A model generated the notes under the pieces. The model saw nothing but the letters and a program-made list of their open reading frames with translations. It was not told the origin of the DNA and searched no databases. 8,874 nucleotides of DNA from Clostridiales bacterium. Its GTDB lineage: Bacteria; Bacillota; Clostridia; Lachnospirales; Lachnospiraceae. This document shows positions 721 through 8,874 of the stretch, piece by piece. The translations under genes were made by a program, and so were the position numbers. Within the stretch, counting starts at the first letter, position 1. The number at the start of each line of letters is the position of its first letter. The stretch is from NCBI GenBank assembly GCA_021199135.1, contig JAJQIQ010000073.1, forward strand, positions 1 through 8,874, given 5' to 3'.

Positions 721-732
721 TTTCCTAAAAAC

Positions 733-761
733 TTGACAATTCAATAGGCACAATGTACAAT
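733..761 (+). promoter_or_regulatory. Sigma-A-type promoter of locus 1
   Basis: TTGACA (733-738), a 17-bp spacer, then TACAAT (756-761). The -35 is consensus and the -10 is one base off. It lies 13 bp after the FlhB-like stop and about 110 bp before cpsC. It matches the minus-strand promoter at 5324-5296 over -35, spacer (12 of 17 positions, including TCAAT and GGCAC) and -10, and the next leader block (GCGTATGAGACATTC here, GCGTTTGAGGCATTC there) also matches. That conservation argues that it is a real promoter and not a chance match. Confidence 0.85.
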
Positions 762-766
762 GTACA
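754..766. promoter_or_regulatory. Palindrome overlapping the -10 (possible operator)
   Basis: TGTACAATGTACA is a perfect palindrome around a single central A and covers the -10 hexamer of the locus 1 promoter. It also reads as an imperfect direct repeat (GTACAAT, GTACAGT). The homologous promoter at 5296-5324 lacks it, so it may be a locus 1 operator or simply a small local duplication. No regulator gene is in the window. Confidence 0.3.
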
Positions 767-779
767 GTGGCGTATGAGA

Positions 780-809
780 CATTCATGTGATCTTGAACGA
801 TCACGAATG
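780..809 (+). promoter_or_regulatory. Leader hairpin of the locus 1 mRNA
   Basis: The left arm is CATTC, a two-base bulge AT, then GTGATC; the loop is TTGAAC; the right arm is GATCAC followed by GAATG. This gives 11 base pairs, starting about 12 nt after the predicted transcription start. There is no T-run after it, so it is not a classical terminator. A hairpin with the same outer sequence (CATTC/GAATG) and a TTGAA loop occurs in the leader of the invertible promoter (5266-5285, minus strand), which suggests a conserved leader element. Its role is unknown. Confidence 0.55.
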
Positions 810-895
810 CAAAACGCCTTCTCCTGAAGAAGAGCGGAGGGCAGGAGGAGCCCAAAGAAGGAGGCAGTGATGCCGAGGGATCCATCGGAAAATAA
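806..895 (+). pseudogene. Remnant of cpsB (last 29 codons)
   Basis: Read in frame from 806, this encodes 29 residues and a TAA that align with residues 232-260 of the intact CpsB at 6449-7234, about 22 of 29 identical by eye. Shared blocks are LLLKK, QEEPKEG, DAEG and IGK. The remaining 230 codons, including every PHP metal ligand, are absent. The sequence may survive because it carries the AAGGAGG ribosome-binding site and overlaps the start of cpsC. Upstream, in-frame continuation meets a TGA at 794-796, so nothing longer is encoded. The 5' boundary coincides with the GAATG of the leader hairpin, which suggests a short-repeat deletion. Confidence 0.8.
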
Positions 896-1625
896 CGAGG
901 ACATTGAGATAGAGATTGACCTGAAGGAAGTGTTTCGGGCGCTGTGGCACAGATGCCCGGCGATTCTGGCGGTGTGTCTCGCGGGAGGCATCCTGGCGGG
1001 GCTGATAACCGAGTTCTTCATCCCGCCGACCTACACCTCCACCACGAGCATCCTGGTGCTCACGAAGGAGACGACGCTCACGTCGCTTGCAGACCTGCAG
1101 CTGGGGAGCCAGCTGGCAAACGATTACGAAGTGCTGATCACGGCACGCGGCGTGCTGAACGAAGTGATAGATGACCTCGGCCTCGAGATGGACTACGAGG
1201 AGTTAAAGAAAAAGATCACGGTCGAGAACCCCACGGACACGCGGATCCTCGAGATTTCGGTGAGGGACCAAAACCCCACCCAGGCGCGGGACATAGTAAA
1301 TGACCTCGCGTCGGTGGCCTCGGTATACATAGGCGACATGATGGAGGTCGTGCCGCCGAAGATCGTCGAGGAGGGCATCGTGCCGAAGAAGCGCACCAGC
1401 CCGAACTTCCTGCAGAACGTCATCATCGGGGTCGTAATCGGGCTTTTGGTCAGCGGCGGGATTGTCGTCGGGATAACAATCACGGACGACACGATAAAAG
1501 ACGAGGAGGACGTGGAGAAATACCTCGGCCTGTCCACGCTCGCGAGCGTCCCGGACCGCCGTGATTTCATAAACGGCAAGAAGAAAAAGAAAAAGCGCGG
1601 CAAGAATAAGGGCAGTAAGAGGTAG
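870..1625 (+). CDS. cpsC: Wzz/CapA-type polysaccharide co-polymerase, kinase activator (locus 1)
   Basis: A 251-residue membrane protein of the Wzz/CpsC/CapA family, which sets polysaccharide chain length and activates the partner tyrosine kinase CpsD. An acidic cytoplasmic start (about 1-28) is followed by TM1 at about 31-50. An extracellular domain follows (about 51-183), with the Wzz-like start PTYTSTTSILVL and a proline-containing stretch (VVPPKIVEEGIVPKKRTSP) before TM2 at about 184-204. The cytoplasmic C-terminus has DDTIKDEEDVEKYLGLSTLASVP, the segment that in this family docks on the kinase, and then a very basic tail of K and R (237-251). I chose ATG 870, 5 nt after AAGGAGG (858-864); GTG 867 in the same frame is a possible alternative. 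It overlaps the cpsB remnant and is followed 19 bp later by cpsD. It is a paralogue of the gene at 7206. Confidence 0.93.
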   Translation: MPRDPSENNEDIEIEIDLKEVFRALWHRCPAILAVCLAGGILAGLITEFFIPPTYTSTTSILVLTKETTLTSLADLQLGSQLANDYEVLITARGVLNEVIDDLGLEMDYEELKKKITVENPTDTRILEISVRDQNPTQARDIVNDLASVASVYIGDMMEVVPPKIVEEGIVPKKRTSPNFLQNVIIGVVIGLLVSGGIVVGITITDDTIKDEEDVEKYLGLSTLASVPDRRDFINGKKKKKKRGKNKGSKR

Positions 1626-1644
1626 CAGGCAGATGGCAGGATAC

Positions 1645-2352
1645 ATGGAACAGACCGTGATAATGACGGATCAGAGAAAATCGAATTACTACTACGAGGA
1701 GGCAATGAAAACTCTTCGAACAAACGTTCAGTATACCGGACGCAGTGTCCGCACCGTCATGTTCACGAGCTGCATGCCGAACGAGGGCAAGAGTGACATC
1801 ACGATGCAGCTCGCGAGGGAATTTGGGAACCTCGGGAAAAAGGTGCTCCTCGTGGACGCGGACATCCGCAAGTCGGCGCTCGCAGGCCGCTACAAGATCC
1901 AGCGCGCCGTGCTCGGCCTCTCGGACTACCTCAGCGGGCAGGTGAGGATGGAGACGGTCATCTACCAGACGAATTTTACGAACCTCGACATCATCTTTGC
2001 GGGGCCGGTCGCGCCGAACCCGTCGGAGCTTCTCGAGGACGCATTGTTCGGGGAGCTGATGAGGAGGGCGAGGGAGAAATACGATTATGTCTTCGTGGAC
2101 ACGCCCCCGATAGGCAGCATCATCGATGCGGCAATCATCGCGAGGCAGTGCGACGGAGTCGTGTTCGTGATACAGAGCGAGTCGATAAGCTATCACTTGG
2201 CGCAGAAGGCGAAGGAGCAGCTGGAGAAGACCGGGTGCAGGATACTCGGCGCGGTCTTAAACAAAGTTGACGTCAAGAAGGATAAATATTACGGCCATTA
2301 CTACTACAAATACTACGGCGATGATGATGGCGGCAAGGGCAGGAAGCGTTGA
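1645..2352 (+). CDS. cpsD: Bacterial tyrosine kinase, CpsD/CapB type (locus 1)
   Basis: A 235-residue cytoplasmic BY-kinase. The Walker A motif is at 45-50 (PNEGKS, K49 binding phosphate), Walker A' at 68-73 (LLVDAD) and Walker B at 147-152 (YDYVFVD, then TPP). The C-terminal autophosphorylation cluster at 215-224 contains seven tyrosines (YYGHYYYKYY). In this family the kinase needs the C-terminus of CpsC and forms a ring whose phosphorylation state governs polysaccharide export or polymerisation. ATG 1645 is preferred because it matches the start of the paralogue at 7980; ATG 1633, four codons upstream in frame, is possible. Neither has a strong ribosome-binding site, so coupling to cpsC is likely. 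Its own phosphatase gene is reduced to a remnant upstream. The last bases overlap the next gene's TTG start (TTGA). Confidence 0.95.
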   Translation: MEQTVIMTDQRKSNYYYEEAMKTLRTNVQYTGRSVRTVMFTSCMPNEGKSDITMQLAREFGNLGKKVLLVDADIRKSALAGRYKIQRAVLGLSDYLSGQVRMETVIYQTNFTNLDIIFAGPVAPNPSELLEDALFGELMRRAREKYDYVFVDTPPIGSIIDAAIIARQCDGVVFVIQSESISYHLAQKAKEQLEKTGCRILGAVLNKVDVKKDKYYGHYYYKYYGDDDGGKGRKR

Positions 2353-3410
2353 AGAAGAAAACCGGCAGCAAAAAATTGGGATACATATTCACTGCTGTGG
2401 CACTGGCCGCGGTGGTTGCGGCGGTTGTCGTGATTGTCTTCTGCCTGAGGGCGATGGGCTTTGGCGGCGTCGTGACAGGGATGGGACGGCAGGACACGGA
2501 GGACGGGGCCGATGCATACGAGAGCGATGAATATGAGAGCGATGAATATGAGACAGAGGATTTCGACGGGATTGTCTTAGACGGCGAAAAATATGTGTAC
2601 AACGACCATCTGAGCAATTTCCTTTTCATAGGCGTCGACAAGGAGGAACAGGTCGACACCTCCGACGGCTCAAGGCACGCCGGTCAGGCCGACGCGATCT
2701 ACCTCATGTCGTGGGACAGGGTCACTGGGGACGTCACGGTCATCGGAATTCCCCGTGACACGATGACGGACATCGAGATTTACGCATATGATGGGACAGA
2801 CATGGGTGCCGCCACCGACCACATAAGCCTCTCTTACGGCTACGGGGACGGCAAGCACACGAGCTGCAGGCTGACTGTGGAGGCGGTATCAAACCTGCTC
2901 TACGGCATCCCCATCCAGGGCTACTGTTCGATAAGCATCGGCGGCATGCCGCTCCTTACGGAAGCGGTCGGCGGTGTCACGGTCACGATACCGAACGACA
3001 GCCTCGAGTACTTGGGCGATGAGTACAGTGAGGGAAGCGAGATCACGCTGGATAAGGACAACACCGAGATTTTCCTCAGGCTCCGCGACACGACCACGAC
3101 CGACAGCGCGCTTTACAGGATGGAGCGCCAGAAGACATTCCTCACCGCCTTCGCGGAGAAAGCCGAGAGCGTTTTTTCCGCGGAGCCCGAGAAGCTCACG
3201 CAGCTTATCACAGACCTCGACCCGTACATGGTCACGAACATCGGCAATGACCAGTACGTAAAAATCCTGGACGGGCTGAACGATGGCGGGCAGACATCCT
3301 ACTGGACGGTTCCGGGCGAGGCCGCCGAGGGGACCTACTACGACGAGTACTACGTCTCCGACGAGGCGCTGTACGGGAAGGTCATCGAGACGTTCTACGT
3401 CAAGCAATAG
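2349..3410 (+). CDS. LytR-CpsA-Psr (LCP) family glycopolymer transferase (locus 1)
   Basis: 353 residues. LCP enzymes sit outside the membrane and move undecaprenyl-linked glycopolymers (wall teichoic acid, capsule) onto peptidoglycan or protein. A signal anchor spans about 13-33, followed by an acidic linker with a repeated ESDEY (58-70). The LCP domain runs from about 90: FLFIGVD (D97), GQADAIYLMSWD (D115), VIGIPRDTM (catalytic-type R136 and D137), HISLSYGYGDG, and GGMPLLTEAVGGVTVTIPND, ending with RLRDTTTTDSALYRMERQKTFL, the usual RQ-type arginine region (R257, R260). The start is TTG 2349, overlapping the cpsD stop as TTGA; the first internal Met (36) would remove the membrane anchor, and the paralogue at 8744 has the same TTG, so TTG is the real start. 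Sortase follows 47 bp later. Confidence 0.92.
   Translation: MKKKTGSKKLGYIFTAVALAAVVAAVVVIVFCLRAMGFGGVVTGMGRQDTEDGADAYESDEYESDEYETEDFDGIVLDGEKYVYNDHLSNFLFIGVDKEEQVDTSDGSRHAGQADAIYLMSWDRVTGDVTVIGIPRDTMTDIEIYAYDGTDMGAATDHISLSYGYGDGKHTSCRLTVEAVSNLLYGIPIQGYCSISIGGMPLLTEAVGGVTVTIPNDSLEYLGDEYSEGSEITLDKDNTEIFLRLRDTTTTDSALYRMERQKTFLTAFAEKAESVFSAEPEKLTQLITDLDPYMVTNIGNDQYVKILDGLNDGGQTSYWTVPGEAAEGTYYDEYYVSDEALYGKVIETFYVKQ
2520..2549 (+). repeat. 15-bp tandem repeat in the LCP linker
   Basis: GAGAGCGATGAATAT occurs twice without interruption, encoding two ESDEY units, followed by a diverged third start (GAGACAGAG). Because the unit is a multiple of three, copy-number change would lengthen or shorten the acidic linker and keep the frame. 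Confidence 0.8.
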
Positions 3411-3426
3411 ATAAAGGAGGTTGCCC

Positions 3427-3453
3427 GTGCGCAGCGTGGCAGGCCAAATGTGA
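3427..3453 (+). CDS. Possible 8-codon leader ORF before sortase
   Basis: A very strong ribosome-binding site (AAAGGAGG, 3413-3420) is followed 6 nt later by GTG and the short frame MRSVAGQM, stopping at TGA 3451-3453, just 4 nt before the sortase ATG. The sortase ATG itself has no good ribosome-binding site close by. The mini-ORF could deliver ribosomes to the sortase start by termination-reinitiation. Alternatively the upstream site is a relic. The peptide itself shows no recognisable function. Confidence 0.3.
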   Translation: MRSVAGQM

Positions 3454-3457
3454 CAAG

Positions 3458-4240
3458 ATGAAAAAATGGCAGATAATTGTGATAATAATTGCATGTGCCG
3501 CCGCGGCTTTCTGCGCCGTGATGGGCATCCGGGGATGGCTTCGGCAGAAAAACGCAGGGAAAGGGTACGAGGACCTGCGCGAGGAGGTCGTCACGGAGGT
3601 CTCGGCGGCTGAACCGGATGCGGCGGCCGTGGAGGAGACGGAAAGCCAGGAAACAGTCGAGATTCCGATCGATTTCGATGCCCTCTGGGAGGAAAACCCA
3701 GACATCTATGCTTGGATCGTGGTTCCCGGCACCAGCATTGACTACCCGATACTCCGGCGCGATGACGATGACAGCTACTACCTCTCGCACGGCGTGGACG
3801 GGGAGGAGGCCGTGGAGGGAGCCATCTACACCGAGAGCTACAACAGCATGGACTTTACCGACCCGAACACCGTGGTCTACGGCCACAACATGAAAAACGG
3901 CTCGATGTTCCGCACGTTGCACAACTTCGAGGACAAAGATTTCTTCGACGAGAACCGGGACGTGACGATATACCTCCCGGATGAGATCCTGCACTACAGG
4001 ATTTTCGCGGCATACGTGACGGACAACCTGCACATACTGCTGAACAATGACTTCAGCGACCCCGACGCCTACCAGAGCTACTTGGACAACATCTTTGCCA
4101 TGGACAGCTCGAGCGCGTTCGTCGACACGGACATGGAGGTGAGCGCGGAGGACAAGATTCTCACATTGTCCACGTGCAATGCGGGAATATCAACACAGCG
4201 ATACCTGGTACAAGCTGTACTGGTGTCCATAGAGCAATAA
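3458..4240 (+). CDS. srtB: Class B sortase
   Basis: A 260-residue membrane-anchored transpeptidase. The N-terminal anchor spans about 5-24, a charged linker runs to about 70, and the catalytic beta-barrel follows. The catalytic triad is visible: H143 in VVYGHNM, C240 in TLSTCNAG and R248 in STQRYLV. The motif WIVVPGTSIDYPIL (86-99) and the long insert between H143 and C240 are typical of class B. The enzyme cleaves a sorting motif between T and G and links the protein to the cell wall. The likely substrate is the next gene, 28 bp downstream, whose motif is SPKTG. No in-frame start exists upstream of ATG 3458; translation initiation may depend on the strong site at 3413-3420. It is co-directional with, and probably in the same operon as, cpsC-cpsD-lcp. 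Confidence 0.95.
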   Translation: MKKWQIIVIIIACAAAAFCAVMGIRGWLRQKNAGKGYEDLREEVVTEVSAAEPDAAAVEETESQETVEIPIDFDALWEENPDIYAWIVVPGTSIDYPILRRDDDDSYYLSHGVDGEEAVEGAIYTESYNSMDFTDPNTVVYGHNMKNGSMFRTLHNFEDKDFFDENRDVTIYLPDEILHYRIFAAYVTDNLHILLNNDFSDPDAYQSYLDNIFAMDSSSAFVDTDMEVSAEDKILTLSTCNAGISTQRYLVQAVLVSIEQ

Positions 4241-4268
4241 AAATTTTAAGGAAAGTGAGGAAAAAAGC

Positions 4269-5036
4269 ATGAGGAAAAAGGTTTTAGCGGGAATGATCGT
4301 GGGAATGCTCCTTGTGGGCCAGGCCATGAGCGTTTTCGCGGCGGGGAGCAAGGGAACCGATGACAGCTCTTCATCCGACACGTCAGCGTCCACCGAGACG
4401 ACGGCTGCGGTTGCGGCGACTGATGACAGCGCGGCTACCGCCTCTGCGATGGACAGCTCAGCGATTGCCGGCGTGGCTGCGGTAGATAAGACGGCCGCCA
4501 CGGTGATTGAGCAGTTCAACAGCGGCGCGATGACCCTCGCCGATGTTGCGGACACGCTCGCCCAGGATGACGCAGCCGATGCGGACGTCATCGAGACGAT
4601 GCAGGCCGACACGACGGTTGCCATGACAGATTTCTTTGACCTGCAGCTTGCAGACGGGGCCAAGAAGAACGCAAACGGCAAGTACGAGGTCAAGCTCTCT
4701 GTCACGATCCCGAGCGGCTACGACGCATACCTGCTACACTTCAGCACCGAGCGCGGCGTATGGGAAATGGTGAAGGCCACGATCGACAGCAAGGCTGGCA
4801 CGATCTCAGCTGAGCTCGACGACCTCTCACCGGCAGCGGTAATCGCAGTTCCGACGAGCACCAGCGGCAGCGAAGGCGGCAGTGGCAACAGCACCAGCAC
4901 AGGGACCGGGACTGAGACTGGAGCGACATCTCCGAAGACCGGCGTGACCTCTGCCTGGGCTATCTGGATGGTAGCGGCAGTCGCGTTCGCAGGCGTAGCG
5001 CTTGTGGCAGGCACCAGGAAGAAAAACGAGCAGTAA
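4269..5036 (+). CDS. Sortase-anchored surface protein with SPKTG motif
   Basis: 255 residues with a secretion signal (positive MRKK, hydrophobic core to about 22, cleavage near VFAA-GS at 24-26). Residues 27-70 are low complexity, rich in S, T, A and D. Residues about 75-195 form a probable small folded domain: a helical part with repeated DxAD, then beta-like KYEVKLSVTIPSGYDAYLLHF. A Ser/Gly/Thr-rich stalk (196-220) precedes the cell-wall sorting signal: SPKTG (221-225), hydrophobic segment about 228-248, and the RKK tail. S/P-P-x-T-G motifs are known for class B sortase of Clostridioides difficile, fitting the sortase just upstream. The start ATG 4269 has GAGG 8 nt before it. It is followed by a terminator, so it is the last gene of locus 1. 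The function of the middle domain is not recognised. Confidence 0.85.
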   Translation: MRKKVLAGMIVGMLLVGQAMSVFAAGSKGTDDSSSSDTSASTETTAAVAATDDSAATASAMDSSAIAGVAAVDKTAATVIEQFNSGAMTLADVADTLAQDDAADADVIETMQADTTVAMTDFFDLQLADGAKKNANGKYEVKLSVTIPSGYDAYLLHFSTERGVWEMVKATIDSKAGTISAELDDLSPAAVIAVPTSTSGSEGGSGNSTSTGTGTETGATSPKTGVTSAWAIWMVAAVAFAGVALVAGTRKKNEQ

Positions 5037-5068: not shown

Positions 5069-5097
5069 AAAAAAAGCTCCCGATGGGAGCTTTTTTT
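5069..5097. terminator. Rho-independent terminator, works on either strand
   Basis: A seven-A run, stem GCTCCC (5076-5081), loop GAT, stem GGGAGC (5085-5090), then seven T. The symmetric A and T tracts make it a hairpin-plus-U-tract terminator in both directions. It ends locus 1 on the + strand and would stop the leftward transcripts from the two minus-strand promoters at 5183-5211 and 5296-5324. Confidence 0.92.
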
Positions 5098-5130: not shown

Positions 5131-5155
5131 TTCGCAAAGTATGCCACTTCACGAA
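5131..5155 (+). repeat. Recombinase-site-like dyad 1 (imperfect)
   Basis: Left arm TTCGCAAAGT, centre ATGCC, right arm ACTTCACGAA. It is in the same orientation as dyad 2 (5230) but has two changes in the right arm (CA for TG), so the inverted repeat is imperfect. It lies 33 bp after the locus 1 terminator and 99 bp before dyad 2. Its outer left flank (AT before TTCGC) matches the outer flank of dyad 3 read in reverse, which may mean it was a partner of that site. Confidence 0.75.
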
Positions 5156-5182: not shown

Positions 5183-5211
5183 ATTTTACATATTATGCGC
5201 GATCTTGTCAA
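5183..5211 (-). promoter_or_regulatory. Minus-strand promoter P1, between dyads 1 and 2
   Basis: Read on the minus strand: TTGACA (5211-5206), a 17-bp spacer, TAAAAT (5188-5183). It points left, across dyad 1 into the terminator, giving a transcript of roughly 100 nt in the present arrangement. It shares TTGACAAG with promoter P2. Inversion between dyads 1 and 3 would turn it toward cpsB; inversion between dyads 2 and 3 would not move it. Confidence 0.6.
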
Positions 5212-5229
5212 TAGCCAAATTTTGTAAAG

Positions 5230-5254
5230 TTCGCAAAGTATGCCACTTTGCGAA
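5230..5254 (+). repeat. Recombinase-site-like dyad 2 (perfect)
   Basis: Left arm TTCGCAAAGT, centre ATGCC, right arm ACTTTGCGAA: a perfect 10-bp inverted repeat. Counted as 9-bp arms with a 7-bp asymmetric centre (TATGCCA), it has the layout of a tyrosine-recombinase core site. It is identical over 27 bp (5230-5256) to the reverse complement of dyad 3 (6400-6426), so the two are oppositely oriented around the recombinase gene. Confidence 0.88.
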
Positions 5255-5265
5255 AATCTTATGAA

Positions 5266-5285
5266 CATTCGAATTTCAACGAATG
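5266..5285 (-). promoter_or_regulatory. Leader hairpin of the invertible promoter
   Basis: CATTCG and CGAATG arms around an 8-nt loop, just downstream of promoter P2 on the minus strand. Its outer sequence and TTGAA loop match the locus 1 leader hairpin at 780-809, although the stem is shorter (6 bp). After inversion it would lie in the 5' leader of the cpsB operon mRNA. Confidence 0.45.
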
Positions 5286-5295
5286 CCTCAAACGC

Positions 5296-5324
5296 ATTAT
5301 AGGTAGTGCCGATTGACTTGTCAA
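5296..5324 (-). promoter_or_regulatory. Minus-strand full-consensus promoter P2 (invertible)
   Basis: On the minus strand: TTGACA (5324-5319), exactly 17 bp, TATAAT (5301-5296). Both hexamers are perfect sigma-A consensus. It lies inside the segment bounded by dyads 2 and 3, just upstream of the recombinase gene but directed away from it. It is homologous to the locus 1 promoter at 733-761 in both hexamers, spacer and leader. The -35 is half of a palindrome, TTGAC-TT-GTCAA (5313-5324), so a second TTGAC faces the recombinase, but no good -10 is found at the right distance on that side. Confidence 0.85.
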
Positions 5325-5364
5325 GTTTTAAACGCAATTTTGCAGAAATTTGGAGGAATGGCAT

Positions 5365-6324
5365 ATGAAAAGACAAGACGAGGCGCGGTATGGTGAAGTG
5401 CTGGATGAGTGGCTGGTTTTCATGAGAATCAGGGTCAAGGAGTCATCCTACGCTAGGTACAGGAACATGGTCGAGGCCCACATCAGGCCGGAGCTAGGTT
5501 CGTGCAGGCTGTCGGAGATGAGCATGACGCTGATAGAGACGTTCATAGTCAATAAGCTGAAAGGCGGGAGGATTGATGGGCGGGGCGGCCTGTCGGAAAA
5601 GACGGCATCGGACATGCTCACCGTGATAAAGAGCACCGTGGATTTCGCGGTATGCCACGGCTATCCGGTATCATGCAGCTTGGGAAAACTTACCGTCAAA
5701 AAGAAGGAGCCAAAGATGCGGGTCCTGTGCCAGTCCGAGCAGGATGCACTGGTGCGAGTCCTGACCGCGGACATGGACCTGTGCAAATTCGGCACCTTCC
5801 TCGCACTTTATACCGGCATAAGGGTGGGGGAACTCTGCGCGCTGCAGTGGGAGGACGTGGACCTGCACGGCTGCAAGCTTATGGTGAGGAAGACGATGCA
5901 GCGGATACAGGTGACGGACGCGCTGGCGAGGAGCAAGACAAAAATAATCATCTCCGAGCCGAAAAGCAACAGCTCCGTCAGGGAAATCCCACTGCCCTCG
6001 TTTTTGGCGGAGACCGCAAAAAATTTTGCTGGGCCGTCGGAGGCATACGTCCTGTCGGGAAAGGCAGACAGGTATGTGGAGCCGCGCACTATGCAGAACC
6101 ATTTCAAGAGATACGCGGCGGAGAGCGGGATAGGCGACGTGAATTTCCACGCGCTCCGTCACACTTTCGCCACGCGTTGCGTCGAGGTCGGCTTCGACAT
6201 AAAGAGCCTCAGCGAAATCCTCGGGCACGCGAACGTGAACATGACGTTGAACCGCTACGTGCACTCATCTTTTGCTTTCAAACAGCAGAACATGGAGAAG
6301 CTCACCTTGAGCATGAGGGACTGA
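5365..6324 (+). CDS. Tyrosine site-specific recombinase (invertase-type)
   Basis: 319 residues. An N-terminal core-binding (SAM-like) domain spans about 8-105 (YGEVLDEWLVFM, SSYARYRNMVEAHIRPELG). The catalytic domain runs from about 120 with the full set of active-site residues: R153 in TGIRVGELCAL, K200 in EPKSNSSVREIPL, H262 and R265 in HALRHTFATR, H288 in LGHANVNMTL, and nucleophile Y298 in NRYVH. There is no extra arm-binding domain of the lambda type and no excisionase or phage gene nearby, which fits a local inversion enzyme better than an element integrase. ATG 5365 is chosen because GGAGG (5352-5356) stands 8 nt before it; an in-frame TTG at 5350 has no such support. The gene is enclosed by dyads 2 and 3, its likely substrates, and would flip with the segment. 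Its own promoter was not identified. Confidence 0.95.
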   Translation: MKRQDEARYGEVLDEWLVFMRIRVKESSYARYRNMVEAHIRPELGSCRLSEMSMTLIETFIVNKLKGGRIDGRGGLSEKTASDMLTVIKSTVDFAVCHGYPVSCSLGKLTVKKKEPKMRVLCQSEQDALVRVLTADMDLCKFGTFLALYTGIRVGELCALQWEDVDLHGCKLMVRKTMQRIQVTDALARSKTKIIISEPKSNSSVREIPLPSFLAETAKNFAGPSEAYVLSGKADRYVEPRTMQNHFKRYAAESGIGDVNFHALRHTFATRCVEVGFDIKSLSEILGHANVNMTLNRYVHSSFAFKQQNMEKLTLSMRD

Positions 6325-6401
6325 AAAAATCCATGCAACTCAGAAAAATCCAATTGCCAAATTTCCACAAATCCACTGTTTTCAACGTATGCGGGGGATT
6401 T

Positions 6402-6426
6402 TTCGCAAAGTGGCATACTTTGCGAA
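6402..6426 (-). repeat. Recombinase-site-like dyad 3 (perfect, inverted relative to 1 and 2)
   Basis: On the + strand: TTCGCAAAGT, centre GGCAT, ACTTTGCGAA. GGCAT is the reverse complement of ATGCC, so this is dyad 2 in opposite orientation. It ends 22 bp before the cpsB start codon. Any mRNA entering cpsB from upstream of it carries this 10-bp stem just ahead of the ribosome-binding site (6433-6440). Confidence 0.88.
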
Positions 6427-6448
6427 ATTCTCAAGGGGAGCGACACAC

Positions 6449-7234
6449 ATGAAGGTGAAGGCGATAGACATCCACTGTCATGTGCTTCCGGATCTCGACG
6501 ACGGATCGGCGAGCATCTGGGAGAGCAAGGACATGATCCGGATGGCTTTCTGGCAGGGCGTGCGTTCAGTCATTGCGACGCCGCATTACTCGAGTGCCTT
6601 CGGCAATGACGACATCGATGTGATAAGGAGCAAATGCGAGGATCTTGAAACGTGGGCGCAGAAGGCTTTAAGCCCAGATTTTTGCGTTTATCCGGGACAG
6701 GAGATCCTCTGCTCGCACGAGGCCATGGAGAGGATAAAGGCGGGAGATGTGATCCCGCTGGCGGAAAGCGACTGCATCCTGGTGGAGTTTCAACCGTCAA
6801 TCTCGTATGAACAGCTGCTTCGGCAGGTCAGGGACATCACGATGAGTCCGTACACCCCTGTGATCGCACACGCGGAGAGATACGTCGCGCTGTGGGAGGA
6901 GGGACGCCTTCGGGAGGTGCGCGGCACCGGGGCGCTGATTCAGGTCAATTATGGCTCGATAAGCGGGGACCGGCGCGACGAGCCCACCAAGTGGTGCAGA
7001 CGGGCACTGAAGGAGCACATGGTCCAATTCGTGGCGACCGACATGCACAACATGGGCAGGCGGGCACCCAAGATTGAGAAGGCCGCAAGGTGGATGAGGC
7101 ACCACCTCGACGAGGAATATGTCAAGGATCTATGTTTTCGGAATGCAGAGCACCTTCTCCTGAAGAAGGGCGAGGGGCAGGAGGAGCCCAAAGAAGGAGA
7201 CCGTGATGCCGAGGGATGCATCGGAAAAGAATGA
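6449..7234 (+). CDS. cpsB: CpsB/Wzb-type PHP-domain protein tyrosine phosphatase
   Basis: A 261-residue metal-dependent phosphatase of the PHP superfamily that removes phosphate from the tyrosine cluster of CpsD-type kinases. The expected ligands are present: H9 and H11 (DIHCHVLPDLDDG, with D17/D18), H46 (ATPHY), E85 (YPGQEIL), H141 (IAHAERY), D198 and H200 (ATDMHNM). The last 30 residues form a charged tail. ATG 6449 has AAGGGGAG (6433-6440) 8 nt upstream. A longer in-frame ATG at 6389 is rejected because it would be translated through the recombination dyad and has no ribosome-binding site. The gene overlaps cpsC by 29 bp and starts a cpsB-cpsC-cpsD-lcp operon. It is the only intact phosphatase gene in view; locus 1 keeps only a tail fragment. 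Expression probably depends on the orientation of the upstream segment. Confidence 0.95.
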   Translation: MKVKAIDIHCHVLPDLDDGSASIWESKDMIRMAFWQGVRSVIATPHYSSAFGNDDIDVIRSKCEDLETWAQKALSPDFCVYPGQEILCSHEAMERIKAGDVIPLAESDCILVEFQPSISYEQLLRQVRDITMSPYTPVIAHAERYVALWEEGRLREVRGTGALIQVNYGSISGDRRDEPTKWCRRALKEHMVQFVATDMHNMGRRAPKIEKAARWMRHHLDEEYVKDLCFRNAEHLLLKKGEGQEEPKEGDRDAEGCIGKE

Positions 7235-7961
7235 AGACACAGAGATAGAGATTGACCTGAAGGAAGTGCTCCGGGAGCTCTGGCGCAAATGCCCGGCAAT
7301 TTTGGCAGTTTGCGTGGCGGGCGGCCTCCTGGCGGGGATGATAACCGAGTTTTTCATCCCGCAGACCTACACCTCCACCACGAGCATTTTGGTGCTAACG
7401 AAGGAGACGACGCTCACGTCGCTTGCAGACCTGCAGCTGGGGAGCCAGCTGGCGAACGACTATGAGGTGCTTATAACCGCGCGGAGCGTGTTAAACGAGG
7501 TGATAGAAAACCTCGGCCTCGACATGGAATACGAGGAATTAAAGAATAAGATCACGGTCGAGAACCCGACGGACACGCGGATCCTCGAGATTTCAGTGAA
7601 GGACCAAAGCCCCACCCGGGCGCGCAACATCGTAAACGAGCTCGCGTCGATCGCCTCGGTATATATAGGCGACATGATGGAGGTCGTGCCGCCGAAGATC
7701 GTCGAGGAGGGAGTTGTCCCACAGAAGCGGACCAGCCCGAGCCTCCCGAGGAATATCGTCATAGGCGTCCTACTGGGCTTTCTGGTCAGCGGAGGGCTCG
7801 TCGTCGGGATGACGATCACGGACGACACGATAAAGGGCGAGGAGGACGTGGAGAAATACCTCGGCCTGTCCACGCTCGCGAGCGTCCCAGACCGCCGCGA
7901 CTTCATAAGCGGCAAGAAGAAAAAGAGGAGACGCGGCAAGAAGAAGGGCAGCAAGAAATAG
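7206..7961 (+). CDS. cpsC: Wzz/CapA-type polysaccharide co-polymerase, kinase activator (locus 2)
   Basis: 251 residues, the same length as the locus 1 paralogue and about 83% identical. TM1 lies at about 31-50, TM2 at about 184-204, with the same C-terminal kinase-contact segment (DDTIKGEEDVEKYLGLSTLASVP) and basic tail. Residues 54-93 of the extracellular domain are identical in the two copies, while TM2 and its edges vary most (for example LLVSGGIVV against FLVSGGLVV). ATG 7206 is 6 nt after AAGGAG (7194-7199); GTG 7203 directly before it is possible. The start lies inside the cpsB 3' end, indicating translational coupling. The family role is chain-length control and activation of CpsD. 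Because the kinase-contact segments are nearly identical, mixed complexes of locus 1 and locus 2 proteins are plausible if both are expressed. Confidence 0.93.
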   Translation: MPRDASEKNEDTEIEIDLKEVLRELWRKCPAILAVCVAGGLLAGMITEFFIPQTYTSTTSILVLTKETTLTSLADLQLGSQLANDYEVLITARSVLNEVIENLGLDMEYEELKNKITVENPTDTRILEISVKDQSPTRARNIVNELASIASVYIGDMMEVVPPKIVEEGVVPQKRTSPSLPRNIVIGVLLGFLVSGGLVVGMTITDDTIKGEEDVEKYLGLSTLASVPDRRDFISGKKKKRRRGKKKGSKK

Positions 7962-7979: not shown

Positions 7980-8747
7980 ATGGAACAGAACGTGATAATG
8001 ACGGACCAGAGGAAATCGAATTACTTCTACGAGGAGGCGATGAAGACCCTTCGGACGAACATTCAGTATGCCGGACGCTATGTCCGCACCATCATGTTCA
8101 CGAGCTGCATGCCGAACGAGGGCAAGAGCGACCTCTCGATGCAGATTGCGAGGGAGTTCGGGAACCTCGGGAAAAAGGTGCTCCTCGTGGACGCGGACAT
8201 CCGCAAGTCGGCGCTCGCAGGCCGCTACAAGGTGCAGCGCGCCTTGATGGGCCTCTCGGATTACCTGAGCGGGCAGGTCGGCATCGACTCGGTCATATAT
8301 AAGACCAATTTTGAGAACCTCGACATCATCTTTGCTGGCCCAGTAGCCCCGAATCCCTCGGAACTCCTCGAGGACACAGCGTTCGGGGAGCTTATGAAGC
8401 AGGCGAGGAACAAGTACGACTACATCTTCGTCGACACGCCCCCGATAGGCAGCATCATCGACGCGGCAATCGTCGCGAGGCAGTGCGACGGGGCGGTTTT
8501 CGTGATACAGAGCGAGTCGATAAGCTACCACCTGGCGCAGAGGGCGAAGGAGCAGCTGGAAAAGACCGGGTGCAAGATCCTCGGCGTGGTGCTAAACAAG
8601 GTCGACGTCAAGAGGGACAAATACTACGGCCACTATTACTACAAATATTACGGCAGCTACGGTTATGGTGGCAAGGCCAAGGACGGCAGCGCGGCCGCGG
8701 CGGGAAATGATGCCGGTAAAAGCAGTGGCAAGAGAAAGAAACATTGA
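7980..8747 (+). CDS. cpsD: Bacterial tyrosine kinase, CpsD/CapB type (locus 2)
   Basis: A 255-residue BY-kinase. Walker A is PNEGKS (45-50), Walker A' LLVDAD (68-73) and Walker B YDYIFVD (146-152). The tyrosine cluster is longer than in locus 1: YYGHYYYKYYGSYGYG holds nine tyrosines (215-229). It is followed by an Ala/Gly/Ser/Lys-rich tail of about 25 residues that locus 1 lacks. The first 225 residues are about 87% identical to the locus 1 kinase. The start ATG 7980 has GAGGG 6 nt upstream and sits 18 bp after cpsC. The stop overlaps the TTG start of the next gene. The extra tyrosines and tail could change phosphorylation dynamics between the two kinases; that is inference. Confidence 0.95.
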   Translation: MEQNVIMTDQRKSNYFYEEAMKTLRTNIQYAGRYVRTIMFTSCMPNEGKSDLSMQIAREFGNLGKKVLLVDADIRKSALAGRYKVQRALMGLSDYLSGQVGIDSVIYKTNFENLDIIFAGPVAPNPSELLEDTAFGELMKQARNKYDYIFVDTPPIGSIIDAAIVARQCDGAVFVIQSESISYHLAQRAKEQLEKTGCKILGVVLNKVDVKRDKYYGHYYYKYYGSYGYGGKAKDGSAAAAGNDAGKSSGKRKKH

Positions 8748-8874
8748 AGAAGAAGACAAGCAGCAAGAATTTGGGATATGTATTCATCATCGTGGTCGCG
8801 GCCGCGGTGGTGGCGGCGATTGTCGTGATCGTGCTCTGCGTGAGGGCGATGGGCTTGCAGCCCATCGCGGCAGT
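8744..8874 (+). CDS. LCP family glycopolymer transferase, N-terminal part (locus 2)
   Basis: 43 codons are visible before the right edge. The sequence begins MKKKTSSKNLGY, followed by a membrane anchor (about 13-33) ending LCVRAMGL, matching the N-terminus of the locus 1 LCP protein. The start is TTG, overlapping the cpsD stop as TTGA, exactly as in locus 1. The catalytic domain lies outside the window, so the family call rests on the paralogue. After residue 37 the two copies seem to diverge. Confidence 0.8.
   Translation, partial: MKKKTSSKNLGYVFIIVVAAAVVAAIVVIVLCVRAMGLQPIAA

Follow-up and report, generated by a model that had tools for sequence, protein, structure and literature searches.

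An 8,874-nucleotide stretch of DNA from a Clostridiales bacterium, referred to here as the window and making up one entire contig, very probably contains a self-enclosed, Hin-like promoter switch with a tyrosine recombinase in front of a cpsB-wzz-kinase operon. As predicted from the sequence, the recombinase would invert a 1.2-kb segment between two sites, B and C, and in just one of the two orientations a promoter, P1, would drive the operon, whose product is a predicted capsule or exopolysaccharide. As far as sequence goes, the segment has the make-up of an inverton, since two inverted sites bound it, a promoter points out at one end and a site-specific recombinase with an intact predicted active site is linked to it. 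As in the Hin system, the recombinase gene lies inside the segment; unlike Hin, which is a serine recombinase, the enzyme has a tyrosine recombinase domain. We infer three things: the enzyme recombines these sites, the promoters are active, and capsule is the product of the operon.

The segment is bounded by a perfect 10-5-10 dyad, TTCGCAAAGT-N5-ACTTTGCGAA, which is present at its left end at positions 5230-5254 with the spacer ATGCC (site B, plus strand) and, in the opposite orientation, at its right end at 6402-6426 with the spacer GGCAT (site C, minus strand), 22 nt 5' of cpsB. A repeat finder returned the corresponding arms as 5222-5256 and 6400-6434 with a complementarity of 91%. A third recombination-site-like dyad, site A (5131-5155, plus strand), has the same ATGCC spacer as site B, differs from it by two changes in the right arm and forms a direct repeat with it at a distance of 99 bp. 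Allowing up to three mismatches, the dyad was matched at exactly three places in the window and at none in 200 shuffled versions. A chance origin of the dyad repeats was considered and ruled out by the shuffles together with the repeat finder. P1, a TTGACA-17-TATAAT promoter on the minus strand (5296-5324), is located 41 bp inside site B and, as sequenced, points left and away from cpsB; its score of zero mismatches was reached in 0 of 5000 shuffles of its stretch. P2 (TTGACA-17-TAAAAT, 5183-5211, minus strand) lies between sites A and B and also points left, with a score that was reached in 11 of 5000 shuffles. Consensus promoters with at most one mismatch occur at three places in the whole window, namely P1, P2 and the promoter at 733 of a sister operon described below. 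The same window scan did not find a promoter of the recombinase gene's own within two mismatches of the consensus, and an Rfam search of the leader for RNA elements gave no match.

As sequenced, leftward transcripts from P1 and P2 would stop at a hairpin with A- and T-runs at 5069-5097, a likely bidirectional terminator (no strand assigned) that was seen by eye and is absent from the list of the terminator scan. The sequenced orientation is predicted to be OFF, or low via read-through from the recombinase gene. OFF may mean low because this gene reads toward cpsB and no obvious terminator lies between the two; the scan listed none there, and the same scan overlooked the obvious hairpin at 5069-5097. 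Computed inversion between sites B and C places the end of the -10 box 88 nt before the cpsB start codon. A symbolic inversion model with sites A, B and C yielded four arrangements, in which P1, P2, both or none of the promoters face cpsB, such that the third same-spacer site and P2 would allow further states, i.e. P2 alone or P1 plus P2. It is conceivable, though we hold it for doubtful, that the locus is a promoter shufflon, in which one recombinase, three same-spacer sites and two promoters would give four states and thus graded capsule expression, recombination between A and B would delete P2 irreversibly, and the sister operon would be a fossil ON arrangement, locked by deletion of a site and most of cpsB. 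A third dyad within 3 kb was found in one of 50 related cassettes, namely that of the window.

Several of these features had been proposed in an earlier, sequence-only reading of the window. Its recombinase with a complete active site, enclosed by two identical 25-bp dyads in opposite orientation, was confirmed by Pfam, the alignment and the dyad scan, and its minus-strand TTGACA-17-TATAAT promoter, inside the left dyad and pointing away from cpsB, is borne out by the shuffles. The recombinase gene indeed lies inside the predicted inverted segment, between the two dyads, and the distance of about 80 nt that it gave for promoter and cpsB after inversion agrees with the computed value, which runs from the -10 box to the ATG. 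The OFF orientation holds insofar as P1 points away from the operon, but the state may be leaky for the reasons given above. Likewise, both sites and P1 of its two-site, one-promoter picture stand, but site A and P2 had been missed and more than two states are possible.

The recombinase gene (5365-6324, plus strand) encodes a predicted invertase of 319 amino acids, assigned to the tyrosine recombinases based on Pfam, alignment, tree and structure match. The protein contains a Pfam Phage_integrase domain (E=4e-27) and a SAM-like core-binding domain; its NCBIfam matches are to XerA/XerC-type models and far under their cut-offs. The residues R153, K200, H262, R265, H288 and Y298, which we take to be the catalytic set, are unchanged across ten aligned sequences (the window and nine relatives) and align with the active-site motifs of the Tn1549 integrase, whose structure (Tn1549 Int, 6EN0, E=1.6e-16) is the best match among solved structures. 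Two proteins of 64% identity (P0003 and P0012) are named from Agathobacter. The window recombinase is without an N-terminal arm-binding-type domain, and none of the Pfam arm-binding models matched it. An N-terminal extension of this type is present in P0012 and L096 by alignment and in L097 by motif; in the tree, L096 and L097 are the nearest relatives of the window recombinase, in a supported grouping with it (99/89), and both carry the N-terminal domain. Mapping an 'arm-type domain' label on the tree required 16 changes, of which 10 are forced by well-supported branches, the label being set by a rough regular expression and the domain counts approximate; as judged from the sequences, losses or gains of the domain have apparently happened more than once. 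GGTCA motifs in pairs, which are candidate arm sites, were seen close to the recombinase gene at 22 of 52 loci with an arm-type motif (L057, L063 and L066 among the 22) vs. 0 of 30 loci without it, where the regular expressions for this analysis and for the tree (54 of 82) differ and some rows are misfiled. According to excerpts of the source, the arm-binding domain is preserved throughout the IntTn916 subgroup and is essential for mobility (PMC8138268). Its loss would therefore fit a domesticated, inversion-only enzyme, which the window recombinase may be.

The predicted target operon begins with cpsB (6449-7234, plus strand), coding for a PHP-type CpsB/CapC phosphatase (Pfam CpsB_CapC, E=2e-66), followed on the same strand by the chain-length determinant gene wzz2 (7203-7961; Pfam Wzz), a second BY-kinase gene (7980-8747), which is a 90% DNA repeat of copy 1 over 300 nt, and the start of a second LCP gene (8744-8874), which is cut by the contig end and is a 79% DNA repeat of LCP 1 over 130 nt; the respective first copies match TIGR01007 and LytR_cpsA_psr. 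These first copies belong to the sister operon (867-5036, plus strand), which comprises wzz1, BY-kinase 1, LCP 1, a class B sortase and a surface protein, and whose wzz-kinase-LCP block is 79-90% identical to the target block over the three longest repeats. Since positions 805-1104 match 7141-7440 with 88% identity over 300 nt (repeat D2), the sister operon continues with a cpsB 3' end: its start corresponds to the final 94 nt of a copy of cpsB (remnant 805-898, plus strand; counterpart 7141-7234). The repeats point to a duplication of the wzz-kinase-LCP block with loss of most of one cpsB copy. Directly before the remnant, a P1-like promoter (733-761) and leader face the sister operon (728-803, plus strand); this stretch was aligned locally over 77 positions to the complement of 5329-5262, i.e. 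P1 and its leader, with a score of 60 that was reached in 0 of 2000 shuffles, and in 1 of 2000 after masking of the promoter hexamers. Positions 728-803 are a probable locked-ON copy of the P1 end. On the simplest reading, the sister operon would stem from a duplicate of the locus that was in the ON arrangement and became locked there when the dyad and the greater part of cpsB were lost. The opposite order, in which the cassette captured an operon promoter, is possible; under either order, P1 belongs with this operon. The surface protein gene of the sister operon (4269-5036), for whose product no family was matched, lies directly 3' of the class B sortase gene and its product has a sorting-signal-like C-terminus by eye, so that the two are a likely sortase-substrate pair. 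Directly 5' of the sister operon, positions 2-720 hold a FliK C-terminal-like fragment and a small FlhB-related protein.

Relatives of the recombinase at E<=1e-3 were found in 61 of the 62 genomes of the genus, its own included, most of these hits being weak and to tyrosine recombinases in general; of the 299 genomes of the family, 64 have close relatives (E<=1e-40). For comparison, 82 loci were used, consisting of the window, L046 (from an 'uncultured Lachnospiraceae bacterium'), 20 mostly strongest non-window matches from the genus search (L047-L066) and 60 of the 86 non-window matches listed by the family search, taken from ranks 1 to 61 after omission of one partial match (L096-L155). Inverted dyads with a score of at least 18 enclose the recombinase in 50 of the 82 loci, compared to 0 of 72 other places in the same loci and 2 of 400 hybrid flanks. 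Among the 32 loci without an enclosing pair, three (including L049) have a dyad pair beside the recombinase, an arrangement found in 0 of 74 control windows, and the remaining 29, some of which are cut by contig ends, have neither an enclosing nor an adjacent pair. At the dyad end 5' of the recombinase, an outward promoter is present in 25, 33 and 43 of the 50 cassettes at up to one, two and three mismatches, respectively, and an inward one in 0, 0 and 9; the respective values were 1, 1 and 6 for the other cassette end and 0.3%, 4.1% and 21.8% for shuffles. This leaves 17 of the 50 cassettes without an outward promoter within two mismatches. The 5-bp spacer is identical between both sites in all 34 clear dyad pairs, of which 21 differ in their arms, a count for which 16 of the 50 cassettes were dropped, the other 34 having a clear 10-5-10 dyad, and which is biased toward matching centres by the use of exact seeds. 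Within each of the genomes G175, G022, G056 and G281, spacers differ from cassette to cassette; in G175, four cassettes (L101, L102, L103 and L105) have nearly the same dyad arms and four different 5-bp spacers. This suggests how several switches in one genome could avoid cross-recombination.

The window's arrangement recurs in another genus, in genome G374, where the order dyad-recombinase-dyad-cpsB-wzz-kinase is the same and the recombinase is 51% identical. Within the genus of the window, this recombinase is nearby in 1 of 29 other cpsB loci, based on flanks of about 1.5 kb and on 29 of 34 listed non-window matches; outside these 29, on contig C59 of G018, cpsB is preceded by part of a recombinase gene and a dyad, together with a TetR gene and polysaccharide genes. 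The pairing of cassette and cpsB is sporadic in the genus. Pfam scans of 30 neighbouring proteins, a non-random selection in which some are regulators adjoining a dyad, revealed ATP-grasp, DUF4910, UDP-GlcNAc 2-epimerase, PglD-like, Wzz-kinase, CpsB, NusG-like and TadZ-like domains, as well as pilus-type (FctA, SpaA), FHA, PP2C and signal-peptidase domains and six helicases. Some of the neighbours are transcription regulators, two are TnpB-like, and two of the 30 proteins, in L052 and L054, had no Pfam match. The two TnpB-like (Cas12f1-like TNB) genes adjoin the cassettes of L057 (1563-2897) and L154 (7454-8830) and are possibly a route of spread.

Three same-genome pairs share both cassette and target flank, and the cassette is opposite in two of them. 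In the pair L063/L209, the target flank is 93% identical and the cassette, at 77-84% identity, runs in the opposite direction, the switch in direction falling at the dyad. The promoter is turned toward a helicase gene in L209 and away in L063; past the far dyad, the two loci do not match. L101 and L102 (G175) share a cassette of 88% and a target flank of 73-80% identity in opposite orientation, the target of L101 encoding a NusG-like protein. L103 and L105, also of G175, have the same orientation. A flipped copy of the window's own locus was not seen in its single assembly. In L133/L139, again from one genome, related targets lie on opposite sides and the cassettes do not align by blastn. At three of nine loci with a helicase target, the promoter end is turned toward the target, and at six away from it; three of the nine (L064, L139 and L141) have weak promoters only, with three or more mismatches. 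An extended pair comparison covering the 50 cassettes and 12 of 13 extra loci with dyads gave 25 opposite, 29 same and 1 other pair, where many pairs share members, most were not viewed singly and L057 and L154, which both adjoin TnpB-like genes, enter five of the opposite pairs. Both orientations thus occur at related loci, among paralogues and other species rather than at one locus in two strains. The comparisons between different loci or species suggest that inversion in place is likely at related loci.

Taken together, the enclosing dyads in 50 of 82 loci, the outward promoters, the gene order in G374 and the reversed pairs make the promoter switch of a capsule-type operon, as the sequence-only reading had proposed it, the reading that is best supported by the sequences. 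It is rather unlikely that this inverton has ceased to invert, the target operon being stuck at low expression and its role taken by the sister operon, fixed in the ON state. Such a frozen state would fit the missing N-terminal arm-binding-type domain, which the nearest relatives carry, and the P1-like promoter facing the sister operon, but sites B and C are perfect, the catalytic residues and the open frame are intact, and other cassettes without that domain, including L052 and L155, keep their dyads. We also consider it unlikely that the segment is a small mobile cassette, i.e. an orphan Tn916-like integrase that has dyads at its ends and was inserted before cpsB, inversion being of no functional importance. 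Tn1549 Int as the nearest solved relative and the occurrence of related cassettes beside many different genes in many genera agree with mobility, and the lack of a match past the far dyad of L063/L209 does so too, as insertion in reverse could yield opposite orientations. However, integration of the Tn916 type leaves the attachment sites as direct repeats, whereas the sites enclosing this segment are inverted, and there is no cargo besides the recombinase, so that the direct-repeat attachment sites and the cargo of an integrative mobile element were not found. In addition, the outward promoter at one end, with no inward one within two mismatches, and the matching spacers in 34 of 34 pairs fit inversion better than mobility.

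Very improbable is the reading that the recombinase acts mainly on sites elsewhere and that the dyads are operators by which its gene is autoregulated. Dyads can bind regulators, and the gene's want of its own promoter within two mismatches of the consensus would be in line with this, but within the 1.57-Mb assembly, which is 73.7% complete, no copy of the site was found outside the window at up to three mismatches, and in relatives dyad arms and spacers match as pairs that flank the recombinase.

Phase-variable capsules are best known from Bacteroides, and Bacteroides fragilis, unlike the source of the window, is a Gram-negative host. In the Hin segment, a promoter leaves the inverted DNA in one orientation, which resembles the window. 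The shufflon recombinase Rci serves several sites and shuffles coding ends, whereas the third site of the window would rearrange promoters. The Mpi recombinase of Bacteroides, which the sequence-only reading had offered as a tyrosine-recombinase parallel, is a serine recombinase. The proper parallel is Tsr19 of B. fragilis, described in excerpts of PMC3090145 as a tyrosine recombinase with an invertible promoter at a large-capsule locus, similar to the window. For Hin and fljBA of Salmonella, a passage of PMC2784873 places the recombinase gene inside the inverted DNA, as in the window, and Hin is portrayed in part of PMC3798978 as a serine recombinase with a Fis-bound enhancer, different from the tyrosine recombinase, 10-5-10 dyads and polysaccharide-type genes found here. 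RecV and cwpV of Clostridioides difficile, as presented in PMC2784873 in part, share with the window a tyrosine recombinase, inversion upstream of a surface gene and an OFF orientation, but the cwpV segment comprises 195 bp, RecV is encoded elsewhere and the promoter lies upstream of the segment. Since RecV is remote from its switch and the cwpV promoter is outside the segment, the architecture of the window is closer to that of Hin, and the RecV parallel drawn previously holds for the type of enzyme but not for the location of recombinase gene and promoter. The integrases of Tn1549 and Tn916, the former being the nearest solved relative with aligned active-site motifs, move transposons and keep the arm-binding domain according to excerpts of PMC8138268, whereas the window enzyme is without it and has inverted flanking sites. 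Rci of the R64 shufflon is, as far as a section of PMC11852207 describes it, a tyrosine recombinase with asymmetric sfx sites, similar to the window in that one enzyme is associated with several sites. In hCom2, inverton group 139, which goes with invertase group 35, comprises 33 invertons, 32 of them from Clostridia, with a tyrosine recombinase near nearly all, by the account in excerpts of PMC11892184; going by this description only, they are probably of the same broad kind as the window cassette. One example of group 139 given in the same excerpts has about 200 bp between the repeats, which is too short to enclose a recombinase (PMC11892184). Among the listed open-licence matches, no description of this cassette in the literature was recognised.

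The comparisons point to a cassette family within one large Gram-positive family, probably the Lachnospiraceae, in which a transposon-type integrase was apparently turned into a one-gene, portable switch. Sites, enzyme and promoter fit in about 1.2-1.5 kb, which provides a simple and testable part list, and such cassettes recur next to surface genes, among them polysaccharide and pilus genes, and next to regulatory genes. The three-site reading, if true, would make the window a natural multi-level promoter selector.

Scans were also extended to viral contigs, one set of which consisted of 80 of 352 confirmed loci. Mixed-strand pairs were present among these contigs: the regulator common to L157 and L159 lies on different sides of the recombinase in the two loci, L157 being without an enclosing dyad pair, and the other such pairs have distant recombinases. 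Distant relatives of the recombinase between inverted repeats were seen in L308, L309-L311 and L313 (Enterococcus raffinosus plasmids), while inverted repeats around the recombinase were not found in L312 (E. gilvus). Three E. raffinosus records of one distant cassette (L309-L311) all have the same orientation, the L308 region matched in its own record only, and the L313 region matched on the same strand in its own and two other records, the matches in these two others being in two pieces with about 1.55 kb extra. The recombinase of L312 lies beside WxL-type surface genes and that of L313 beside signal-peptidase and glucosaminidase-domain genes. On the Ruminococcus albus plasmid pRUMAL02 (L314), two opposed integrase genes precede a gene with a helicase-associated domain, similar to the helicase targets of other cassettes.
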